From positions 1-41,846 of the forward strand of contig JAOPVZ010000215.1 in the NCBI GenBank assembly GCA_025965935.1: a stretch of 41,846 nt of DNA, given 5' to 3'. Under the pieces are notes generated by a model, which had not been told where the DNA came from, did not search any database, and saw only the letters and a list, made by a program, of their open reading frames with translations. This DNA is from Frankiales bacterium (lineage in GTDB: Bacteria > Actinomycetota > Actinomycetes > Mycobacteriales > SCTD01). Positions 16,469-26,516 of the stretch are shown here, one piece after another; position 1 is the first letter of the stretch, and every line of letters starts with the position of its first letter. The position numbers and the translations under genes were made by a program.

Positions 16469-17377
16469 TCACCTAGCCGCGACGAAGCGGGCCAGGAGCT
16501 CCGCCACGCGGGGGCCTTGGTCCTCCTGGAGGAAGTGCCCCGCGCCCGTGATCGTGGTGTGCGGCTGTCCAGTGGCGCCGGGCACGTTGCGCTGGAACCA
16601 GACCTCGCCACCGCCGGTGATCGGGTCGCTGTCGGAGTACAGCGTCAGGAACGGCTTGTCCCACGCGCAGAGCGCCTCCCGGGCTGACACGTTGGCGGCG
16701 GACGCCGGGTCGCTCGCGTCAGTCGGCACCAGGGTGGGGAAGATCCGGGCCCCCGCCTTGTAGCTGTCGTCCGGGAACGGGGCGTTGTACGCAGCAGTCA
16801 CCTCGGCGGACAGGGTCGAGACGACGGCCATAGCGACGATGGCGCCTGCGTCGAAGTCCGGGGTGGTCTGCGAGAACTGCTGCCAGGCCAGGAAGGCCTT
16901 GCTGGCCGGCTCGAGTCCCGTCGGGAGGCCTGTGTTGCCGATCGCGACCCTGGCGAAGCGCTTGGGGTGCTCGGCGGCGAGCCGCAGACCGATCAGCCCT
17001 CCCCAGTCCTGGCCGAACAGGGTGATGTCCTCGAGACCGAGCTGGTCGAGGACGCAGCTCCGCACCCACTCGACGTGCCGCGCGTAGCTGTAGTCGCCGG
17101 GCTGCGTGGGCTTGTCGGAACGACCGAAGCCCACCAGGTCCGGCGCGATGCAGCGCAGGCCTTGCGCGACGAGCATGGGGATCATGGTGCGGTAGAGGAA
17201 GCACCAGGACGGCTCACCGTGCAGGAGCAGCACCACCGGACCGTCGGCCGGGCCCTCGTCCAGGTAGTGCATGCGCAACGCGCCGCCGTCCCCATCGGGA
17301 ACCTGCCTGTAGTGCGGTGAGAACGGGAAGCCCGGTAGCCCGTCGAACCGCTCGTCGGGGGTGCGCAGCGCGTGCAT
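16469..17377 (-). CDS. Haloalkane dehalogenase, subfamily I-like (DhmA/DhlA type)
   Basis: 302 residues from ATG 17377 (GAGGAG 6 nt upstream; opens MHALRTPDERFDGLPGFPF as in DhmA-type enzymes; the ORF's extra 13 residues are dropped). Alpha/beta-hydrolase with oxyanion segment LLHGEPSWCFLYR, nucleophile Asp124 and halide-binding Trp125 in FGQDWGG, acid in YSDSDPIT (Asp251) and base His281 in GAGHFLQED. The Asp nucleophile followed by Trp is diagnostic against ordinary esterases. It would hydrolyse a C-halogen bond to alcohol and halide. It is the third gene of the leftward sulfatase operon, 35 bp after the sulfatase-DJ-1 stop. Confidence 0.87.
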   Translation of the reverse strand: MHALRTPDERFDGLPGFPFSPHYRQVPDGDGGALRMHYLDEGPADGPVVLLLHGEPSWCFLYRTMIPMLVAQGLRCIAPDLVGFGRSDKPTQPGDYSYARHVEWVRSCVLDQLGLEDITLFGQDWGGLIGLRLAAEHPKRFARVAIGNTGLPTGLEPASKAFLAWQQFSQTTPDFDAGAIVAMAVVSTLSAEVTAAYNAPFPDDSYKAGARIFPTLVPTDASDPASAANVSAREALCAWDKPFLTLYSDSDPITGGGEVWFQRNVPGATGQPHTTITGAGHFLQEDQGPRVAELLARFVAAR

Positions 17378-17412
17378 GGTCAGCTCCTCGGGGGTCGGGG
17401 TCCGCGCCGGAG

Positions 17413-19983
17413 TCACCGGCGGGTCGTGCGCGCCAGGACGCGCGCGACCATCTCGCGGGCGACCATGGGTCCCGCGTTCTGGTTCTGCCCCGTGATGAGG
17501 TTGCCGTCCACCACCCAGTGGTTGGCCAGGGGGTCACGGAACCGGCTCACCGACTCGAACAGCGCACCCAGCTTCCGGAGCTCGGCCTCCGGGTGCATAG
17601 GCGTCGAGGTGATGCGCAGCTCGCGCACCTGCTTGTCGGTCACCGCTGTCACCTTGCGCCCCGATACGAGCGGGGTGCCGTCGGCGTTGGTGGCGTTGCG
17701 CAGGGCCAGCGGCCCGTGGCAGATGCCACCGATGACCAGGCCTGCGGCAGAGGCCGCCGAGACCTGCTCGGCCAGCGGCTCCGAGACCCCGAAGTCGAAG
17801 GCCGCTCCCCACCCGCCGGCCAGGAAGAGCAGGTCGTAGTCGCTCATGTCGAGATCGCCGACGGCCAACGAGCCGGCGACCTTGGCCGCCAGGGCGCCGT
17901 CACCGAGGTAGCGGTCATCGGCGGGGGTGCGGATCACCGGCTTCAGCGACATCGGATCGACGGGGATCACCCCGCCGAGCGGGCTGGCGACGTCGACTTG
18001 CATGCCGGCGTCCAGGAAGTAGTAGTACGGAACGGTCAGCTCGGATGCGAAGACCCCGGTGGGCTTGCCGTTGCCCAGCGTCCCGTGATTGGTGGCCACG
18101 ACCAGTGCCCGCCTGCCCGGGGCCATCAGCGCGTCCGCGGCCTCGTCCTCCGGGTGCAGCCCCAGTCGCTGCACGAAGCGGCGCAGGACACGAGCGGGAG
18201 CAGGCGGGGTCGCCTTCACAGGCACACCTCTCGATCGACGGACGGCATACGGCCAGGGATGGTGCCGCTCCGGGACGCAGCGCAGGCGCTCCTCCTTGAG
18301 GCGCGTCCGCAGGTGCCGGAGGACCTCGGCGCAGCTCTCGTCGCGCCACCGGTTCACCGCCTCGGCGGAGTCGGCGTCGAGGTCGTACAGCTCCCACTGG
18401 TCCGGCAGCGGATCGGTGCGGAACTCCTCACCCCCGAGCCCGTTCGCCGCCAGGTGCCGGACACCCGGTTCGGTCCACGTCGACGGGTCGTCGAACGTCC
18501 GCACCAGCTTCCACAGGTGGCCCGCGCCGTCGACGGAGTCCTCGAGCCTGACGACGATCCCCTCGAAGCTGGAGGCGACGTGCGCCGCAACCCGGATCCG
18601 CAGCGGCGTCGGCGGGTTCTTGGTACGACCCAGCCGACGCGCCAGCCCCGACAGGCCGGTGTCGCCCTCGAGCATGTTGTCCCGGGTCATCAGGTACACG
18701 GCGCGGTGCCGGTCCCCGCGGCTCGGGTCCTTGACCATCGGCATCAGGTCCTGCCCTGGAAGCGGATGCACCTCGCTGAAGGCCGCGCCGAGCACCCTGG
18801 CGAGCTCCTGCTCGTCAAGACCCGCAGCTGCCAGCAGCGTCGGGAGCAGATCGACGTGGGAGGTGGCCACGTCGCTCACGGCGCCACCGGCCGTGGCGAG
18901 CGCGCCGGTGCCGACGATGCTCAGCGGGACCCGGGTCGACTCGTCGTACAGGTTGAACCACTTCTGGTGCAGGCCGCCGTGCGCCCCCAGCAGCTCACCG
19001 TGGTCGGAGGTGCGCACCAGGACCGCGTCACTGGAGCCGTTTTCAGTCACCGCTCGACGCACCCTGTCGAGCGGGCCGTCGACCTCCGCGTGCAGGCGGT
19101 AGTAGAGGTCTCGGTACTGCTGGGCTCTTGCGCGGTAGATCCGCGAGATGGCCGGCGCGGGCCCGTACGCGGAAGGGTAGGACTCGCGGAAGGCGATCTG
19201 GGCCGCCGGCTTGTGCGAGAGGTCCTCGTGCTGGGTCGGGGCCTCCGCAACGTGCGGCGGGTCGAGGGGGCCGGCTGCCAACGGCGACTTCCGGGCCCAC
19301 TTGGGGAAGAGCACGATGTCGTGCGGGTTCACGAAGCCCGCGACCAGCAGGAACGGCCGCAGCGCGTCCGGGTCGCCCGCCCGCCGACGGGCGTACCGGT
19401 CCTGCAGCCAGGCGACCAGGCGGTCGGCCAGCAACGGGTCGCGGCGCAGCCCGCTGTCGGACAGGCGCGCACCATGGGGTTCGGGACCGACCCAGCCGGA
19501 GAAGCCGTACGGGCCGAGCGGATCGGCGTCGAGGTAGGTCTGCACCGCGGCCGGGAGCACCGTGCCCTTGTCGGTGTTGGTGTCGAGACGGCGTCCTGAC
19601 TCGTCCTGCAGATCGGCGTGGCTGATGTGCCACTTGCCGTCGTAGTGGGTGTCGTACCCAGCGGCCCGGAACCAGTTGCCGAGCGTGGGCACCTGTCCCG
19701 GCGGCAGCCATCGCATCCTGGAGTCGCTCGCGTCCTTGCCCAACCCGTCCGTCTGCGTCACCCCGTGCAGGTCCGGGTACTGGCCGGTGAACAGGGTGGG
19801 GCGCGAGGGAACGCAGGCCAGCGAACCGGTGTAGTGCCGGCTGAAGGACACGCCGTTCTCGGTGAACCAGCGGGCGCCGGGCAGGGCGCTCTGTCGCCAC
19901 GACCCAAGTGCGTCGGACTCGTACGGCGGTGCCGCACGCTCCTCGTCCGTCAGCAGGACGACGATGTCCGGGCGGTTCGTCAC
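17413..19983 (-). CDS. Sulfatase fused to a C-terminal DJ-1/PfpI (Hsp31-like) domain
   Basis: 856 residues from GTG 19983, which overlaps the SRPBCC stop (GTGA); the frame upstream of 19983 is the shadow of that gene. Residues ~5-600 are a type I sulfatase: RPDIVVLLTDEER, the formylglycine motif CVPSR (Cys57) in SLACVPSRPTLFTGQYP, metal/substrate segment DGKWHISH and RTSDHGELLGAHGG. After a ~30-residue linker, residues ~620-856 are a complete DJ-1/PfpI domain: ALVVATNHG, GVFASELTVPYYYFLDAGM, LLFLAGGWGAAFDFG and nucleophile Cys755 in GGICHGP. No stop or frameshift lies between. Sulfatases hydrolyse sulfate esters; Hsp31-type proteins have glyoxalase or chaperone activities. I know no such fusion. 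No signal peptide, so cytoplasmic. Confidence 0.88.
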   Translation of the reverse strand: MTNRPDIVVLLTDEERAAPPYESDALGSWRQSALPGARWFTENGVSFSRHYTGSLACVPSRPTLFTGQYPDLHGVTQTDGLGKDASDSRMRWLPPGQVPTLGNWFRAAGYDTHYDGKWHISHADLQDESGRRLDTNTDKGTVLPAAVQTYLDADPLGPYGFSGWVGPEPHGARLSDSGLRRDPLLADRLVAWLQDRYARRRAGDPDALRPFLLVAGFVNPHDIVLFPKWARKSPLAAGPLDPPHVAEAPTQHEDLSHKPAAQIAFRESYPSAYGPAPAISRIYRARAQQYRDLYYRLHAEVDGPLDRVRRAVTENGSSDAVLVRTSDHGELLGAHGGLHQKWFNLYDESTRVPLSIVGTGALATAGGAVSDVATSHVDLLPTLLAAAGLDEQELARVLGAAFSEVHPLPGQDLMPMVKDPSRGDRHRAVYLMTRDNMLEGDTGLSGLARRLGRTKNPPTPLRIRVAAHVASSFEGIVVRLEDSVDGAGHLWKLVRTFDDPSTWTEPGVRHLAANGLGGEEFRTDPLPDQWELYDLDADSAEAVNRWRDESCAEVLRHLRTRLKEERLRCVPERHHPWPYAVRRSRGVPVKATPPAPARVLRRFVQRLGLHPEDEAADALMAPGRRALVVATNHGTLGNGKPTGVFASELTVPYYYFLDAGMQVDVASPLGGVIPVDPMSLKPVIRTPADDRYLGDGALAAKVAGSLAVGDLDMSDYDLLFLAGGWGAAFDFGVSEPLAEQVSAASAAGLVIGGICHGPLALRNATNADGTPLVSGRKVTAVTDKQVRELRITSTPMHPEAELRKLGALFESVSRFRDPLANHWVVDGNLITGQNQNAGPMVAREMVARVLARTTRR

Positions 19984-20420
19984 GACGATGCTCTCGTGCC
20001 CGCCAGGTGGCCCTCGAGCCCACCGACGAGCTGCTTGCCGGCCTTGCCGAGCTTGCGCGCCACCAGTCGACTGACCAGCGGGCCACCCTTGGTCGCCACC
20101 ACCGACGTCAGCGTGACCCGCGTTCCCTTGCCCGCAGCAGACAGGACCCAGGTGTTGCTCGCCTGGCGAACCACCGGGGGAAGCCCCGTGATGCTGTAGC
20201 CCAGCACGAACGGCGGCTGCCACTCCGTGACCGTCTCGCGCAGCGCGTTGCGGCCGACCTGGACCCGGCGGGTCGCGCCCGGACCGCTGGAGGCTTCCGT
20301 CAGCAGGTTGCTCTGGCTGACCCCGGTGCCCCACTCGCTGATGTCCCCGAAGCGGCCCAGCACTGACCAGACCTCCTCGACGCCGAGCGGGATCAGCGCG
20401 GTGCACGAGATCGTGGCCAT
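19980..20420 (-). CDS. SRPBCC (START/polyketide cyclase-like) family protein
   Basis: 146 residues from ATG 20420; the ORF extends 12 codons further, but MATISCTALIPLGVEEVW is the natural family opening. The helix-grip pattern is visible: VEEVWSVLGRFGDISEWGTG, then ATRRVQVG, RETVTEWQPPFVLGYSI, NTWVLSAAGKGTRVTLT and a C-terminal helix VARKLGKAGKQLVGGLEGHL. The fold forms a hydrophobic cavity that binds lipids, polyketides or aromatic compounds; no catalytic residues can be assigned. First gene of the leftward operon, coupled to the sulfatase-DJ-1 gene by a GTGA overlap, so it may bind or present the sulfated substrate (inference). Confidence 0.82.
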   Translation of the reverse strand: MATISCTALIPLGVEEVWSVLGRFGDISEWGTGVSQSNLLTEASSGPGATRRVQVGRNALRETVTEWQPPFVLGYSITGLPPVVRQASNTWVLSAAGKGTRVTLTSVVATKGGPLVSRLVARKLGKAGKQLVGGLEGHLAGTRASS

Positions 20421-20438
20421 GAGGCGCTTCCTATCATC

Positions 20439-20455
20439 TGGCACTACCATTGCCA
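20439..20455. promoter_or_regulatory. Candidate operator TGGCA-N7-TGCCA, copy A
   Basis: Inverted repeat with 5-bp arms and 7-bp spacer in the 77-bp divergent region between the SRPBCC and arylsulfatase genes. It sits 8 bp upstream of the rightward -35 and within the leftward promoter region. A near copy (TGACA-N7-TGCCA) occurs at 24566-24582. Confidence 0.55.
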
Positions 20456-20462
20456 ATAGTTG

Positions 20463-20491
20463 TTGACACCCTCGCGGGCCGTTCCTACCGT
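20463..20491 (+). promoter_or_regulatory. Leaderless promoter of the arylsulfatase gene
   Basis: Consensus -35 TTGACA (20463-20468), 17-bp spacer, -10 TACCGT (20486-20491), then 6 nt to ATG 20498. There is no Shine-Dalgarno, so the mRNA should begin at or within a base or two of the start codon. Confidence 0.72.
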
Positions 20492-20497
20492 CGTCGC

Positions 20498-22270
20498 ATG
20501 CCGACGGACGAGCACTTCGAGGGCACCATCGGGCGCACGTTCGCCGACTCGACGCCCCATTGGCCGGAGCCGGTCCGGGCGGCCGAGGGCGCTCCGAACA
20601 TCGTCTACGTGCTGTACGACGACCTGGGGTTCTCCGACTTCGGCTGCTTCGGGTCCGAGATCGAGACCCCCACGGTGGACCGGCTCGCGGCCGAAGGCCT
20701 GCGGTACACCAACTTCCACGTCACGCCGCTGTGCTCACCCACCCGGGCCTGCCTGCTGACCGGTCGCAACCACCACTCGTCGGGTATGGGCATGGTCCCG
20801 AACTTCTCGATCGGCTACCCCGGGTACCGCGGCCAGCTCAACCCCTCGACCGCAACGATCGGCGAGATGGCCCAGACACAGGGCTACACCACGCTCGGCG
20901 TCGGCAAGTGGCACCTCACCCCGATGACCCACTTCACGGGGGCCGGGCCCTTCCACCAGTGGCCGCTGCAACGGGGGTTCGACCGGTGGTACGGCACCCC
21001 GGACGGGCTGACCAACCAGTGGAAGCCCGACCTCATCAAGGACAACCACTGGGTCGACGCACCCGACAAGCCGGACTACCACTTCACTGCCGACATCATC
21101 GACAACGCGATCTCCTTCGTGCAGGACCACAAGAACGGGGCTGCCACCAAGCCGTTCTTCCTCTACGTCGCCTTCTGCGCCCCGCACTTCCCGCACCACG
21201 TGCCCAAGTCGTACATCGAGAAGTACGTGCCCGTCTTCGAGAAGGGCTGGGACGCCACTCGCTCGGACCGGCTCGAGCGCCAGAAGGCCCTCGGCCTGAT
21301 CGGCGCGGACACTCCCCTTCCTCAGCGCAATGACGGCGTCAAGGCGTGGGATGAGTACGACGACGAGGCCAAGGAGAGCATGGTGCGGCTGCAGGCCGCC
21401 TTCGCCGGCATGGTCCAGCACACCGACGAGCACCTCGGGCGACTGGTGGCTGCGCTCGAGGAGATGGGCGAGCTCGACAACACGATGTTCGTGCTGTTCA
21501 GCGACAACGGCGCCAGCCAGGAGGGCGGACCGGTCGGCTCCATGAACTCGATGCGGTTCTTCACGGGCTACTCGTCGCCCGAGGCGGAGCTCAAGGAGAT
21601 CCACGAGAACCTCGATCAGATCGGCGAGGAGCAGTGGATCAACAACTACGGCACCGGCTGGTCGATGGCCGGCAACACGCCGTTGAAGCGCTGGAAGCAG
21701 GACACCCACGGTGGCGGCGTCCGCTCCCCTCTTGTCATCCGCTTCCCCGGGGAGATCGCCGATCCCGGAGGCATCCGCACCCAGTTCCACCACGCCATCG
21801 ACATCACACCGACAGCGCTCGACGTCACAGGGATCGCCGCCCCGGACCAGGTGAAGGGCGTGGACCAGAAGCCGCTCGAGGGCCAGAGCATGCGCTACAC
21901 CTTCGGTTCCCCAGAGGCTCCGACCACCAAGCGGGTCCAGTACTTCGAGATGAACGGGCAGCGGGCTCTCTGGCAGGACGGCTGGAAGGCCGTCACCCAC
22001 CACGAGCCGATGATCAGCCCGATGCTCGTGCTCAGCGGCGCGGCGGCAGAGGTGACCGACTTCGACAGCGACCGCTGGGAGCTGTACCACCTGGACACCG
22101 ACTGGAACGAGGTCCACGACCTCGCCGACCAGGAGCCTGAGCGGCTCGCCGCGATGGTTGCCACCTGGTGGGCCGAGGCGGAGGCGCACGATGCGCTGCC
22201 CCTCGGTGCGGTCATCGGCGGGATCCAGGGGGCCCCGCTCCACGGCCGGCAGAGGAACCCCCGCTCGTGA
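20498..22270 (+). CDS. Type I arylsulfatase, N-terminal catalytic part (AtsA-like)
   Basis: 590 residues from ATG 20498. Metal-binding Asp41-Asp42 in YVLYDDLGFSD, formylglycine site Cys79 in TPLCSPTRACLLTGRN, GVGKWHLTP, the second metal pair in VLFSDNGASQEGG and the sulfate-contact segment NTPLKRWKQDTHGGG are all present, so the catalytic domain looks intact. It cleaves aryl or related sulfate esters after maturation by the enzyme encoded at 23112. AtsA-like actinobacterial enzymes are usually ~770-790 residues and end in a beta-sandwich domain; here the frame stops at 22270 and that domain follows in another frame (22284). No signal peptide, so cytoplasmic. Confidence 0.93.
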   Translation: MPTDEHFEGTIGRTFADSTPHWPEPVRAAEGAPNIVYVLYDDLGFSDFGCFGSEIETPTVDRLAAEGLRYTNFHVTPLCSPTRACLLTGRNHHSSGMGMVPNFSIGYPGYRGQLNPSTATIGEMAQTQGYTTLGVGKWHLTPMTHFTGAGPFHQWPLQRGFDRWYGTPDGLTNQWKPDLIKDNHWVDAPDKPDYHFTADIIDNAISFVQDHKNGAATKPFFLYVAFCAPHFPHHVPKSYIEKYVPVFEKGWDATRSDRLERQKALGLIGADTPLPQRNDGVKAWDEYDDEAKESMVRLQAAFAGMVQHTDEHLGRLVAALEEMGELDNTMFVLFSDNGASQEGGPVGSMNSMRFFTGYSSPEAELKEIHENLDQIGEEQWINNYGTGWSMAGNTPLKRWKQDTHGGGVRSPLVIRFPGEIADPGGIRTQFHHAIDITPTALDVTGIAAPDQVKGVDQKPLEGQSMRYTFGSPEAPTTKRVQYFEMNGQRALWQDGWKAVTHHEPMISPMLVLSGAAAEVTDFDSDRWELYHLDTDWNEVHDLADQEPERLAAMVATWWAEAEAHDALPLGAVIGGIQGAPLHGRQRNPRS

Positions 22271-22283
22271 CGCTGCCGGCCGC

Positions 22284-22829
22284 ATGACAGCTCGGGCCCG
22301 GTGGACGCTCTACCCCGGGCAGTCGCGCCTCCCGGACGCTGCGTCGCCGGACCTGCGGGGCCGCTCGTTCAGCATCGCTGCCGACGTCATGCTGCCCACC
22401 GCCACCGACCACGGTGTCCTCATCTCGCACGGCGACCGCAACGGCGGCTACGCCCTCCTGGTGGACGGGGGCCATCTCGTGCACCACCACGTCCATGCCG
22501 GCACGCACTCGGTCGTCCGGTCCACCGCCCGAGTGCCGGTCGGCCGCGATGTGCGCCTCGAGGTCAAGGTGCAGCGCTGCGGCCCGAGCGGAGTCGTCGC
22601 GTTGCTGGTCGACGGAGTCGTCGTCGGTGAGGGCTTCATCCCCGAGCTGGCTCGGGCGCGCACCGGCTACACCGGTGTCGATATCGGCTGCGACCGCGGG
22701 CTCACGGTCGCCGACTACACCGCCCCGGCCCGCTTCACCGGACGGCTGCGGTGCGTCGAGATCGAGGCTGCTGACGACCAGTGGCTCGACGAGCAAGCGG
22801 TCCTGGAGATCGAGGGCACGACGGGTTGA
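22284..22829 (+). CDS. C-terminal beta-sandwich domain of AtsA-type arylsulfatase, separate ORF
   Basis: 181 residues if read from ATG 22284. WTLYPGQSRLPDAASPDLRG, FSIAADVMLPT, GVLISHGDRNGGYALLVD, DVRLEVKV and FTGRLRCVEIEAAD match the concanavalin/LamG-like tail that in AtsA-type sulfatases is part of the same chain. It lies in the +1 frame relative to the preceding ORF, and that frame is open from 22158, so removing one base (for example in the CCCCC at 22258-22262) would give a single 776-aa protein. There is no Shine-Dalgarno before 22284. Most likely the second half of a frameshifted gene or a sequencing error; a true two-chain enzyme is the alternative. Confidence 0.7.
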   Translation: MTARARWTLYPGQSRLPDAASPDLRGRSFSIAADVMLPTATDHGVLISHGDRNGGYALLVDGGHLVHHHVHAGTHSVVRSTARVPVGRDVRLEVKVQRCGPSGVVALLVDGVVVGEGFIPELARARTGYTGVDIGCDRGLTVADYTAPARFTGRLRCVEIEAADDQWLDEQAVLEIEGTTG

Positions 22830-22847
22830 CGACCCAAAGGGTCAACC
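22824..22847. terminator. Hairpin after the arylsulfatase gene pair
   Basis: GGTTGAC-GACCC-AAA-GGGTC-AACC: a GACCC/GGGTC stem with AAA loop, extended by outer GGTT/AACC pairing past a three-base bulge. It spans the TGA stop at 22827-22829. It could be a weak terminator or attenuator, or an operator for the downstream leader/FGE genes. Confidence 0.4.
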
Positions 22848-23024
22848 GATGACGACGTGGTGCGGCTCGTCACCGAGCTCGATCGGGCCAGGCGGGCCGC
22901 GGGATCGTGCCGGGAACATTCTGCCGCGAGACCGCTGGGCGTCTTGTCGCACCGGCACCGAGTTTCTGCCGGAACTGTGCCAAATTATTGGGCGCGCGAA
23001 GTCGTTGATGAGCAGCGCACCCCG

Positions 23025-23030
23025 TACCCT
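23025..23030 (+). promoter_or_regulatory. -10-like element TACCCT before a leaderless leader ORF
   Basis: TACCCT lies 7 nt before GTG 23038. The -35 region (TCGTTG at 23002-23007, 17-bp spacer) is weak. The surrounding 22830-23037 stretch holds no other gene; a short CCAA-N4-TTGG repeat (22980-22991) is the only other structure I see there. Confidence 0.4.
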
Positions 23031-23037
23031 GAACGCC

Positions 23038-23115
23038 GTGACCATGGCGCCGACGTCTCCCGACGGACGGGTCCTGCGCGCTCGTCAGACCCGCACTCTG
23101 GCCGCACCGCGGTGA
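23038..23115 (+). CDS. 25-codon leader ORF coupled to the formylglycine-generating enzyme gene
   Basis: GTG 23038 to TGA 23115 encodes a 25-aa basic peptide (six Arg; VTMAPTSPDG, RQTRTLAAPR). Its stop overlaps the GTG of the FGE gene (GTGA at 23112-23115). A -10-like TACCCT lies 7 nt upstream, suggesting a leaderless transcript. The FGE start has no Shine-Dalgarno of its own, so this ORF could deliver ribosomes to it by coupling. It has no Cys or repeated codon that would indicate a classic attenuation signal. I recognise no family; support is positional only. Confidence 0.4.
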   Translation: MTMAPTSPDGRVLRARQTRTLAAPR

Positions 23116-23978
23116 CCTGCTGCACACCCTCCCGACCGGAGAGCACGGAGAGCTCCGAACCGGTGCGGACCACGGGTCGGGACGATGCGCCAATGGTGGC
23201 GCTGCCGGCTGCCGAGTTCCTCATGGGCGACGACAGCCCGTGGAGCTACCCCGAGGACGGGGAGGGACCACGGAGAAGGGTTGCGGTCGAGGCGTTCGAG
23301 CTGGACGTCAGCGCGGTGAGCAACGAGCGCTTCGCCGCCTTCGTGGACGCGACCGGGCACGTCACGGACGCAGAGCGGTTCGGCTGGTCGTTCGTGTTCG
23401 CTGGCCTGCTCCCCGATGACTTCGAGCCGACCCGAGGGGTGGAGGCAGCGCCGTGGTGGCGGCAGGTCCCGGGGGCGTGCTGGCGGCACCCGGAGGGATC
23501 CCACAGGGCCGTCACCGACCGCCTCGACCACCCCGTTGTCCATGTGAGCGCGCGGGACGCCGCCGCCTTCGCCACCTGGGCGGGCAAGCGGCTCCCGACC
23601 GAAGCGGAGTGGGAGTACGCGGCCGGCGCCGGCTCCACGACGACCTTCCCCTGGGGGGAGGAGCTGCAGCCGGGTGGCGAGCACCGCGCCAACGTCTGGC
23701 AGGGCGAGTTCCCCAGCCTCAACACCTGCGAGGACGGCTTCGCCGGCACGTGCCCGGTCGACGCCTTCCCGGCCAGTGCCTTCGGGACGCACAACATGAT
23801 CGGCAACGTGTGGGAGTGGACAGCAGACACCTGGTCCGGCGGCAGGGTCCTGAAGGGAGGCTCCTACCTCTGCCACGCGTCGTACTGCCGCCGCTACCGA
23901 CCCGCGGCCCGGAGCAAGGCATCTGCCGACAGCTCGATGGGCAACACCGGGTTCCGCTGCGCGAGGGCCGCGTCGTGA
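23112..23978 (+). CDS. Formylglycine-generating enzyme (SUMF1/FGE), sulfatase maturase
   Basis: 288 residues from GTG 23112, which opens VTCCTPSRP and overlaps the leader stop; GTG 23163 or ATG 23193 are alternatives that still keep the whole fold. Motifs: GDDSPWSYPEDGEGP, AVSNERFAAFVDATGHVTDA, APWWRQVPGACWRHPEG, HPVVHVSARDAAAFATWAGK, RLPTEAEWEYAA, NVWEWTAD and the copper-binding pair in GGSYLCHASYC (Cys254, Cys259), then GNTGFRCA. The enzyme oxidises the Cys of C-x-P-x-R motifs to formylglycine using O2. Its targets here are probably the two sulfatases (CSPTR and CVPSR) in the same island. The loop before GGRVLKGG is shorter than in the Streptomyces enzyme. Confidence 0.93.
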   Translation: MTCCTPSRPESTESSEPVRTTGRDDAPMVALPAAEFLMGDDSPWSYPEDGEGPRRRVAVEAFELDVSAVSNERFAAFVDATGHVTDAERFGWSFVFAGLLPDDFEPTRGVEAAPWWRQVPGACWRHPEGSHRAVTDRLDHPVVHVSARDAAAFATWAGKRLPTEAEWEYAAGAGSTTTFPWGEELQPGGEHRANVWQGEFPSLNTCEDGFAGTCPVDAFPASAFGTHNMIGNVWEWTADTWSGGRVLKGGSYLCHASYCRRYRPAARSKASADSSMGNTGFRCARAAS

Positions 23979-24565
23979 TCGAGCGCATCGATGGTCGCAC
24001 CGCTCGTCGGGACCGGAACAGCGATGCCGTGCTGGACACGGTGCACGACATGTTCGTCGAGGGGAACTTCACCCCTGCGGTCGAGGACGTCGCGGCACGG
24101 TCAGGGGTGTCGTTGCGCTCGGTCTACCGCTACTTCGAGGACACCGAAGCCCTGCTCCGACAGGCGATCGAACGACGTGTCCGACTGGTCGAGCCCCTCT
24201 TCGTCCTCCCAGAGCTCGGTGAAGGGACTCTGAGCGAGCGCGTCACCAGGTTGGTGAACCACCGGCTGGCCCTCCACGCCAAGCTCGGACCGACCATCCG
24301 CGCCGCGATCCTGCGCGCTCCCTACTCGCCGCTACTCGCTGAGCAGATCCAGCGGCGACGCAGGATGCTGTCCGATCAGGTGGCCGCCCACTTCGCTCCG
24401 GAGATCAACGCCATGGACAAGACGCGCGGCCGCGAGGTCATCGCCTGCATCGACACGCTCTGCGAGTTCGAGGCGATGGAGCACCTGCGCGTGCAGCGTG
24501 GCCTGTCCATCGCCCGCACACGCAGCACGATGGTCACCGGAGTCACAGCCCTCCTGCAAGACTAG
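23975..24565 (+). CDS. TetR family regulator of the sulfatase island
   Basis: 196 residues from GTG 23975, overlapping the FGE stop (GTGA). HTH: PAVEDVAARSGVSLRSVYRYFEDTEALL (~30-57), a clean TetR recognition helix; the C-terminal domain (LRAPYSPLLAEQIQRRRRMLSDQVA, IDTLCEFEAMEHLRVQRG) is of the general ligand-binding kind. It is co-transcribed with the FGE gene. The pseudo-palindromes TGGCA-N7-TGCCA (20439) and TGACA-N7-TGCCA (24566) at the two main promoters of the island are its most likely operators (inference). The ligand may be a sulfated or desulfated substrate. Confidence 0.88.
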   Translation: MIERIDGRTARRDRNSDAVLDTVHDMFVEGNFTPAVEDVAARSGVSLRSVYRYFEDTEALLRQAIERRVRLVEPLFVLPELGEGTLSERVTRLVNHRLALHAKLGPTIRAAILRAPYSPLLAEQIQRRRRMLSDQVAAHFAPEINAMDKTRGREVIACIDTLCEFEAMEHLRVQRGLSIARTRSTMVTGVTALLQD

Positions 24566-24594
24566 TGACACACGAACTGCCACCAGACTAACGT
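24565..24594 (+). promoter_or_regulatory. Leaderless promoter of the DUF1330-like/alkylsulfatase genes
   Basis: GTGACA (24565-24570), 18-bp spacer, TAACGT (24589-24594), then 6 nt to GTG 24601. The -35 overlaps the operator-like repeat at 24566-24582. Confidence 0.6.
24566..24582. promoter_or_regulatory. Candidate operator TGACA-N7-TGCCA, copy B
   Basis: Same arm length and spacing as copy A at 20439-20455, differing by one base in the left arm. It covers the -35 of the promoter for the DUF1330-like and alkylsulfatase genes, where a bound repressor would exclude RNA polymerase. Confidence 0.5.
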
Positions 24595-24600
24595 GGTCGC

Positions 24601-25251
24601 GTGGCGGAGCACACCGAGCAGGTCCGGTACGGTCGGCTGGACAAGGACTTCGTCGCGAGCCTGCGCGCCGTGACGGTCGAGCAGGACGACGCGTTCCTCA
24701 TGCTGAACCTCATGCGTTACCGGCCCTGGGCCGACTACGGGGACGACCGTCCTCGGATCACCGGCCGGGAGGCCGACGACCTCTACGCACCCGTGGACAT
24801 CCTGGCCGAGCTCGGCGCCGAGATCGTGCTGTTCGGCGACGTGGTGGAGCAACCGCGTGGCGACGAGGCCTGGGACCGCGTGGCGATCGTGCGATACCCC
24901 ACCGTCCGGTCGTTCCTCGACATGCAGGAGCGGCCCGACTTCATCGCCCGGCACGTCCACAAGGACGCAGGCATGGAGCGCACCGTCATCGCTGTCTGCC
25001 GACCCATGGCGGGAGCGCTGGGGGCCGGAGACAAGATGCTGGTCGACCTGGTCACCGACACCGAGGTGGAGGCTGCTCCTGGCCAGCTCCTCCTGCGGGT
25101 GGAGGGCTCGCCCGTCAACGACGGGCCCCAGTGGTCGACTTTGGTCCTCACCGCTCTCGACGACGAGAAGGGCGCGGGAGACCACCTCGCCGGCTACGGC
25201 GGTGAAGCCACCTCCGTCATCGTCGCTGCCATGCTCAACACGCTGCGATGA
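24601..25251 (+). CDS. DUF1330-like (dimeric alpha/beta barrel) protein
   Basis: 216 residues from GTG 24601, placed 6 nt after a -10 element. The first half resembles DUF1330: DDAFLMLNLMRYRPWADY, AELGAEIVLFGDVVEQ, WDRVAIVRYPTVRSFLDMQ and FIARHVHKDAGMERT. The second half (MLVDLVTDTEVEAAPGQLLL, WSTLVLTALDD) looks like a diverged repeat of the same ferredoxin-like fold, so the protein may be a pseudo-dimer. Family members bind or convert small hydrophobic molecules; no catalytic residue can be named. Coupled to the alkylsulfatase by an ATGA overlap, so it probably acts on the same substrate. Confidence 0.72.
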   Translation: MAEHTEQVRYGRLDKDFVASLRAVTVEQDDAFLMLNLMRYRPWADYGDDRPRITGREADDLYAPVDILAELGAEIVLFGDVVEQPRGDEAWDRVAIVRYPTVRSFLDMQERPDFIARHVHKDAGMERTVIAVCRPMAGALGAGDKMLVDLVTDTEVEAAPGQLLLRVEGSPVNDGPQWSTLVLTALDDEKGAGDHLAGYGGEATSVIVAAMLNTLR

Positions 25252-26516
25252 GCGGCATCCTGGACCTGGCCGACGACCTCTGGACAGGGGTCCGAAGCAT
25301 CGAGGACACCCATCCCTTCTCGTTGCTCGGCGAAGCCGAGGAGGTCGCGGACGGTGTCGCGTTCGTGCCGTCCTTCGCCAACGTGTCAGGGTTCTCGACC
25401 GAGCAGGGGCTCGTGCTGGTCGACACCGGCAGCGCACCCCTGGCGCAGCACGTCCACAGCACGCTTCGCCGCTGGAGCCCCGCGCCACTCCACACGGCCG
25501 TGTTCTCGCACGGGCACATCGACCACGTCTTCGGGGTCGCGCCCTTCGAGGAAGAGGCGGCCACGAACGGATGGGCTGCTCCCCGCGTCGTGGCGCACGA
25601 GGCGCTGCCGGCCCGCTTCGACCGCTACCAGCTGACTGCCGGCTACAACGAGGTCGTCAACCAGCGCCAGTTCGCGCTGCCCGACCTCCGATGGCCCCGC
25701 GAGTACCGCTATCCCGACCGCACCTACGCCGGCGCCCTCGACCTGTCCGTCGGGGACTTGGACCTGGTTCTCCGGCACTGCAAGGGCGAGACGGACGACC
25801 ACACCTACACCTGGGTCCCGGAGCGCAAGGTCCTCTGCTGCGGTGACCTGTTCATCTGGGCCTCCCCCAACGCCGGCAACCCTCAGAAGGTGCAGCGCTA
25901 CCCCAAGGAGTGGGCGACCGGGCTACGAGCCATGGCCGAGCTCGGGGCGGAGCTGCTGCTCCCCGGGCACGGCGTCCCCGTCCTCGGAGCCGACCGCATC
26001 CGGCAAGCCCTCACCGAGAGCGCCGAGCTGCTCGAGCACCTGCACGACGAGACGGTCGCGATGATGAACGCCGGTGCCCGGCTCGACGAGATCATCCACA
26101 CCGTGCAAGGGCCGCAGCACCTGCTGGACCGCCCCTACCTCCGGCCGGTGTACGACGAGCCCGAGTTCGTGGTGCGCAACGTCTGGCGCCTTTACGGCGG
26201 CTGGTACGACGGAGATCCCGCCCACCTCAAGCCGGCTCCCGCTGACGTGTTGGCGACCGAGCTTGCAGACCTCGCCGGCGGGGCGCAGCGGCTGGCGGAC
26301 CGGGCCCTCGAAGTGCTCGCAGCTGGGGACCAGCGGCTGGCCGGTCACCTCGCCGAACTCGCCGCGCAAGCTGCCCCGCAGGACACCGCGATCCATCGGG
26401 TTCGAGCGGCGGTCTTCGCGGCCCGCGCGAGCGATGAGGCGTCGACCATGGCCAAGGGCGTCTTCTCGTGGGCAGCGCGGGAGTCCGCCGTGCTCGCCGA
26501 GCATCCAGCTCCCTGA
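25248..26516 (+). CDS. Type III metallo-alkylsulfatase (SdsA1-like), short cytoplasmic form
   Basis: 422 residues from ATG 25248. MBL-type zinc motif SHGHIDHVFG (His88, His90, Asp92, His93), second-site residues in CKGETDDHTYTW (Glu181) and CCGDLFIWASPNAGNPQK (Asp200), and LLLPGHGVPV. The alkylsulfatase dimerisation segment VWRLYGGWYDGDPAHLKPA is diagnostic. These enzymes hydrolyse alkyl sulfates such as SDS to alcohol and sulfate by C-O or S-O cleavage and need no formylglycine. SdsA1 is ~650 residues, exported, with a C-terminal SCP2-like domain; this one has no signal peptide and ends after the dimerisation domain. The stop lies 9 bp from the convergent ClC gene. Confidence 0.88.
   Translation: MSGILDLADDLWTGVRSIEDTHPFSLLGEAEEVADGVAFVPSFANVSGFSTEQGLVLVDTGSAPLAQHVHSTLRRWSPAPLHTAVFSHGHIDHVFGVAPFEEEAATNGWAAPRVVAHEALPARFDRYQLTAGYNEVVNQRQFALPDLRWPREYRYPDRTYAGALDLSVGDLDLVLRHCKGETDDHTYTWVPERKVLCCGDLFIWASPNAGNPQKVQRYPKEWATGLRAMAELGAELLLPGHGVPVLGADRIRQALTESAELLEHLHDETVAMMNAGARLDEIIHTVQGPQHLLDRPYLRPVYDEPEFVVRNVWRLYGGWYDGDPAHLKPAPADVLATELADLAGGAQRLADRALEVLAAGDQRLAGHLAELAAQAAPQDTAIHRVRAAVFAARASDEASTMAKGVFSWAARESAVLAEHPAP

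Follow-up and report, generated by a model that had tools for sequence, protein, structure and literature searches.

A conserved fusion of a type I sulfatase with an altered DJ-1/PfpI domain in actinobacteria

In a 41,846-nucleotide stretch of DNA from a Frankiales bacterium (contig JAOPVZ010000215.1; hereafter the window), a type I sulfatase continues into a DJ-1/PfpI domain within a single gene (Table 1), which raises the question of whether such a fusion is genuine and, if so, what the second domain contributes. The functions of DJ-1-family proteins are disputed; here a DJ-1 domain is tied to an enzyme of known chemistry, with its acid changed in nearly every member, and the search for a substrate is thereby bounded. 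A sequence-only reading had placed both domains in one 856-residue open reading frame, with Cys57 in CVPSR and Cys755 in GGICHGP, and our analyses confirm each of these statements. The gene is a single open frame of 856 codons on the reverse strand, with a GTG start and no internal stop, and both domains score above their Pfam cut-offs (PF00884, E 9e-42, 143.8 bits vs. a cut-off of 25; PF01965, E 4e-10, 40.2 bits vs. a cut-off of 26.6). The open frame reaches upstream to position 20406, and homology starts only from the GTG at 19983, whose overlap with the stop codon of an upstream SRPBCC gene reads GTGA.

Table 1. Features of the fusion gene and of its neighbours (positions in the window)
Feature	Position	Strand	Evidence
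Fusion gene, 856 aa: type I sulfatase, linker and DJ-1/PfpI (Hsp31-like) domain	17413..19983	-	ORF, Pfam, relatives
Sulfatase domain, residues 5-388	18820..19971	-	PF00884
Formylglycine site Cys57	19813-19815	-	A-C-V-P-S-R motif
DJ-1/PfpI domain, residues 646-847	17443..18048	-	PF01965
Glu648 of DJ-1 domain	18040-18042	-	kept
Cys755 of DJ-1 domain, in GGICHGP	17719-17721	-	kept
His756 of DJ-1 domain	17716-17718	-	kept
Val786, in place of the triad acid of the DJ-1 domain	17626-17628	-	fused vs. stand-alone comparison
Possible internal translation start: GAGAGG (18227-18232), 7 nt, GTG (18217-18219, Val589)	18217..18232	-	
SRPBCC (Bet v 1/PYL-like), directly upstream of fusion	19980..20456	-	PF10604 E 5e-17
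Haloalkane-dehalogenase-like alpha/beta hydrolase, next gene downstream	16469..17416	-	NF002043 450 bits
Second type I sulfatase, divergently transcribed	20450..22270	+	PF00884 E 2e-65
Formylglycine-generating enzyme (FGE)	22857..23978	+	PF03781 E 7e-68
Metallo-beta-lactamase-fold protein, alkyl-sulfatase dimerisation domain	25248..26516	+	PF14863 E 1e-31, PF00753 E 3e-15

The fusion and its relatives

The fusion is genuine, old and conserved as a unit, and both its existence and its conservation are secure. Relatives were sought in one genome of each prokaryote species, and the best 80 of the 397 found hold both domains in one open frame at 57-75% identity; as the best-scoring relatives these loci are biased toward fusions, and the class and genus samples described below are less biased. 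The proposed search for the same two-domain order elsewhere thus returned 80 further loci and, because these hold both domains in one frame, chance or an assembly error is excluded. The divergences of the sulfatase and DJ-1 domains correlate (r = 0.83, 3240 pairs) and an SRPBCC gene lies directly upstream of the fusion in 80/80 loci, so that the earlier claim that the protein works as a unit stands in its conservation part. Mean identity across fusions was 69% for the DJ-1 half as compared to 66% for the sulfatase.

Two other explanations for the joined frame were also considered. A lost stop codon in the linker, which mostly measures 53-57 residues, is ruled out by the 80 same-frame relatives, and the proposition that homologous loci always consist of two genes is refuted, the 80 best relatives being fused. 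No close pair of separate sulfatase and DJ-1 genes was seen; stand-alone DJ-1 relatives are only 31-42% identical. One subclade (L046, L049, L050, L053, L056, L069, L070) has a longer linker, in which positions 570 and 625 are about 88 residues apart, and most of its members share a VPLLPP motif.

Many Acidimicrobiia MAGs carry the fusion, and so do isolates such as Nocardioides sp. Root1257, Streptomyces sp. CB02009 and Actinobacteria bacterium IMCC26207. When the class of genome G446 was sampled evenly, the fusion was present in 25 of 395 genomes; the window's own class (sample of 395) has it in four other genomes, and its own family contains one further fusion, cut by a contig end. This patchy distribution suggests horizontal spread or repeated loss. 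A search of the open-licence PMC literature for a sulfatase fusion with DJ-1, ThiJ or PfpI retrieved nothing relevant, and the earlier statement that no such fusion was known holds to the extent that we found no paper describing one, but the arrangement is widespread among actinobacteria rather than unique; it joins two known families in a conserved and apparently undescribed order. Two MAG records, L025 (titled Bifidobacterium breve) and L086 (Planctomycetaceae), contain near-copies of the Acidimicrobiia/Microthrix-type fusions L026 and L012, respectively, and are probably mislabelled or misbinned.

One genus in the window's order carries a sulfatase that is 68-73% identical to that of the fusion and has no DJ-1 domain; we infer this genus to be Mycobacterium, as one of the genomes has 79 PPE matches. 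These loci (L127-L134, L143-L153) resemble the fusion locus in that an SRPBCC gene lies directly upstream wherever flanks were examined, and differ from it in that the sulfatase stops within or just before the linker. An unfused paralogue in an Acidimicrobiia-like genome (L140) likewise lacks the DJ-1 domain. In M. tuberculosis the mycobacterial pair probably corresponds to Rv3076/Rv3077 (AtsF). AtsF has been listed among the type I sulfatases of unknown substrate (PMC3675115), and the fusion gives a clue to these unfused sulfatases, which keep the same SRPBCC partner; in addition, natural proteins offer the sulfatase both with and without the DJ-1 half for study. In every one of 200 bootstrap trees, with the far as with the nearer outgroups, the unfused clade falls within the fusions, which favours loss of the DJ-1 domain by mycobacteria from a fused ancestor. 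On the other hand, the outgroups are distant and the AU test is therefore compatible with the fused sequences forming one clade (P = 0.60 and P = 0.38), so that it admits the reverse. Some unfused mycobacterial C-terminal tails (e.g., L149, GLVRRVLGRLGL followed by the stop) look like the first part of the fusion linker, which hints at truncation.

The Paenibacillus/Tistrella sulfatases and Actinomycetota sulfatases at 40-47% identity (L119, L120, L137-L139, L173-L176) belong to the same branch over residues 1-580 and match the fusion over its sulfatase half only; no DJ-1 domain was found in those examined with flanks.

Active sites of the two halves

Among 81 aligned sequences, C57, S60, R61, K117, H119, H221, D222, D327, H328 and K341 of the sulfatase half are invariant. 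Within the formylglycine motif (C57-V-P-S-R), C57, S60 and R61 occur in 81/81 sequences and P59 in 80/81. The candidate metal and sulfate ligands D13, K117, H119, H221, D327, H328 and K341, to which we assign these roles from general knowledge of the family, are likewise invariant. A gene for a formylglycine-generating enzyme (PF03781) is present in the window genome, both at 22857-23978 and on contig C228, and was carried by all 10 genomes tested. The fusion thus resembles type I (formylglycine) sulfatases (S1/PF00884) in its fold, motif, ligands and nearby FGE, and departs from them in that it adds a C-terminal DJ-1 domain and scores below the cut-off of every NCBIfam sulfatase subfamily model. 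No signal peptide is apparent by eye and a sulfatase core strand opens the conserved frame, the best reading being that this sulfatase is cytosolic.

The full fusion was modelled with AlphaFold2 using 45 family sequences (mean pLDDT 82, pTM 0.69), and the two halves of the model were compared with known structures by Foldseek. The sulfatase half matches S1 sulfatases, namely choline sulfatase and exo-galactose-6-sulfatase. For the DJ-1 half the matches are 1u9c and 4p5p (TM 0.91 by target length for both; rmsd 1.9 for 1u9c). The DJ-1 half shares its fold and a Glu-Cys-His site with Hsp31-like proteins (1u9c, 4p5p [REP24], Candida glyoxalase III 4lru and yeast Hsp31), and differs from them in being joined to a sulfatase, in an identity of 26-36% in the fold alignment and in three changes to the pocket.

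These changes emerged when 92 fusions were set against 26 DJ-1 relatives that stand alone. At position 786, where Hsp31-type proteins have their triad acid, Val is found in 99% of the 92 fusions (rarely Ile) and Glu in each of the 26 unfused sequences; the preceding residue, 785, is invariably Gln among the fusions and invariably Glu among the stand-alone proteins (EE to QV); and GGHG has become GGWG, with Trp725 in all fusions vs. His in 25/26 stand-alone relatives. Position 786 aligns with what we take to be Glu168 of Candida glyoxalase III. The catalytic triad of ScHsp31 is C138-H139-E170 (PMC4021431), and the acid mutant D221A of S. aureus SAV0551 had only marginal glyoxalase activity (PMC5691139). 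The remainder of the site is conserved in the fusions, Cys755 being present in 82/82, Glu648 invariant and His756 kept. The earlier reading had called both active sites intact; this is correct for the sulfatase and for Glu648, Cys755 and His756, but not for the triad acid. By its PF01965 score, fold match, conserved Glu and nucleophile Cys, the DJ-1 half belongs to the DJ-1/PfpI superfamily. It has V786 rather than an acid beside C755-H756, i.e., no Hsp31-type Cys-His-Asp/Glu triad, and, judged by its sequence, should not be classed as an ordinary Hsp31 or glyoxalase III. As the loss of the acid and GGWG are fixed family-wide, these data point to a pocket that has been changed but retained, and the role of the domain probably lies outside the known DJ-1-type reactions.

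A candidate internal start in the linker

At a candidate internal start the linker of the window reads TCGAGAGGTGTGCCTGTGAAG; this combination of Shine-Dalgarno site and start is the strongest of 40 in the fusion frame (-9.6 kcal/mol), and translation from it would give a free DJ-1 protein of 268 aa. The first codon of the linker Gly-Gly is GGA in 16/22 relatives as compared to 3.1 expected, an excess whose true significance is lower than simulated since the 22 sequences share ancestry. This codon choice forms GGAGG, in most cases with a spacing of 4 or 7 nt to an in-frame start; L024 and L060 have neither a start at this site nor GGAGG. A per-locus synonymous test gave a weaker signal than this codon count, with P ≤ 0.05 in 10/58 loci (4/28 without near relatives) as compared to 0.9% of control sites, and P = 0.15 for the window alone.

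A universal internal start was rejected, as 20/78 linkers have no ATG/GTG at this point and several basal lineages do not have it. Because of its absence in other lineages, the internal start is a secondary and partial feature; in part of the family, the window included, it may allow the DJ-1 domain to be produced on its own as well. Shine-Dalgarno-like sites with an in-frame ATG/GTG at the domain junction were also observed in the linkers of L012, L016, L066, L040, L079 and others, and codon choice at these sites exceeds amino-acid need in part of the fusion family.

Neighbouring genes and possible roles of the DJ-1 domain

The model of the SRPBCC protein (pLDDT 90) resembles plant PYL/PR-10 ligand-binding proteins. 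Other recurrent neighbours of the 80 fusion loci are a second sulfatase (28 loci), a metallo-beta-lactamase-fold protein (30), a dehalogenase-like protein (28) and a DUF1330 protein (34). Of the operon position described in the earlier reading, the upstream SRPBCC gene (80/80) is thus constant, but the downstream haloalkane dehalogenase (28/80) is frequent rather than constant.

We tentatively favour, at somewhat less than even confidence, a cytosolic sulfatase to which an altered DJ-1 pocket is joined, this pocket either acting on the desulfated molecule or sensing it, beside a partner that binds lipophilic ligands. The reaction proposed is as follows. FGE would turn Cys57 into formylglycine, as suggested by the motif and the FGE gene, and the sulfatase domain would then hydrolyse a sulfate ester whose parent compound is probably small and lipophilic, since a gene for a Bet v 1/PYL-like ligand-binding protein always adjoins the fusion. 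The DJ-1 pocket (Glu648, Cys755 and His756, with no triad acid) could act on the desulfated product or sense it covalently, and the fusion would either pass the product between the sites or couple sulfatase activity to the pocket. In some lineages, including that of the window, the internal start would yield a free DJ-1 domain able to pair with the fused copy. Conservation of both domains, their parallel divergence, the invariance of Cys755, Glu648 and the sulfatase sites, the fold match to 1u9c, the family-wide fixation of the altered pocket, the apparent lack of a signal peptide, the constant SRPBCC gene with its predicted PYL/PR-10 fold and the hydrolase neighbours count for this proposal. 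The sulfatases of mycobacteria and L140, which manage without a DJ-1 domain, count against it and indicate that the sulfatase reaction does not require this domain.

A structural, non-catalytic domain could account just as well for the missing triad acid. The DJ-1 half might serve as a scaffold that dimerises the sulfatase or binds the SRPBCC partner without chemistry of its own, a role that would suit the dimers formed by Hsp-type DJ-1 proteins (PMC5691139), the near-universal absence of the acid from the 92 fusions and the dispensability of the domain in mycobacteria. A pure scaffold needs neither Cys755 nor Glu648, however, and both are invariant down to 57% identity; we thus regard this role as possible but rather unlikely.

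The earlier reading's first idea, an ordinary glyoxalase III or deglycase that clears a reactive carbonyl arising from the sulfatase product, is weakened to a doubtful one. Glu-Cys-His is kept and Candida glyoxalase III (4lru) is among the nearest solved relatives, but replacement of the triad acid by Val throughout the fusions makes such activity doubtful, all the more given the marginal activity of the SAV0551 acid mutant (PMC5691139), and the flanking Glu to Gln and GGHG His to Trp changes likewise speak against it. Similarly doubtful is the combined reading in which one gene gives two products (the fusion and, from a ribosome-binding site within the linker, a free DJ-1 protein), the altered pocket has a new, non-glyoxalase reaction on the desulfated product and a PYL-like SRPBCC protein delivers or senses the ligand. 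Less probable again is a redox or carbonyl sensor in which oxidation of Cys755 or its conversion to an adduct switches the sulfatase off or on; a reactive Cys at a sharp turn is common to the DJ-1 superfamily (PMC5691139), and Cys755 is invariant while its surroundings are altered. Finally, the suggestion that the Hsp31-like domain aids folding of the sulfatase as a chaperone in cis, which would draw on the triad-independent chaperone activity of SAV0551 (PMC5691139), is most improbable, as the mycobacterial orthologues exist without the DJ-1 half at 68-73% identity over the sulfatase and a chaperone has no need of invariant Cys and Glu residues.

Within the window, the dehalogenase-like gene likely starts at the ATG at about 17377, behind GAGGAG. 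Two of the three PF00884 sulfatases of the genome lie in the window, and positions 20450-26516 form a sulfate-ester island beside the fusion operon that comprises the second type I sulfatase, FGE, the TetR regulator and the protein with the alkyl-sulfatase dimerisation domain.
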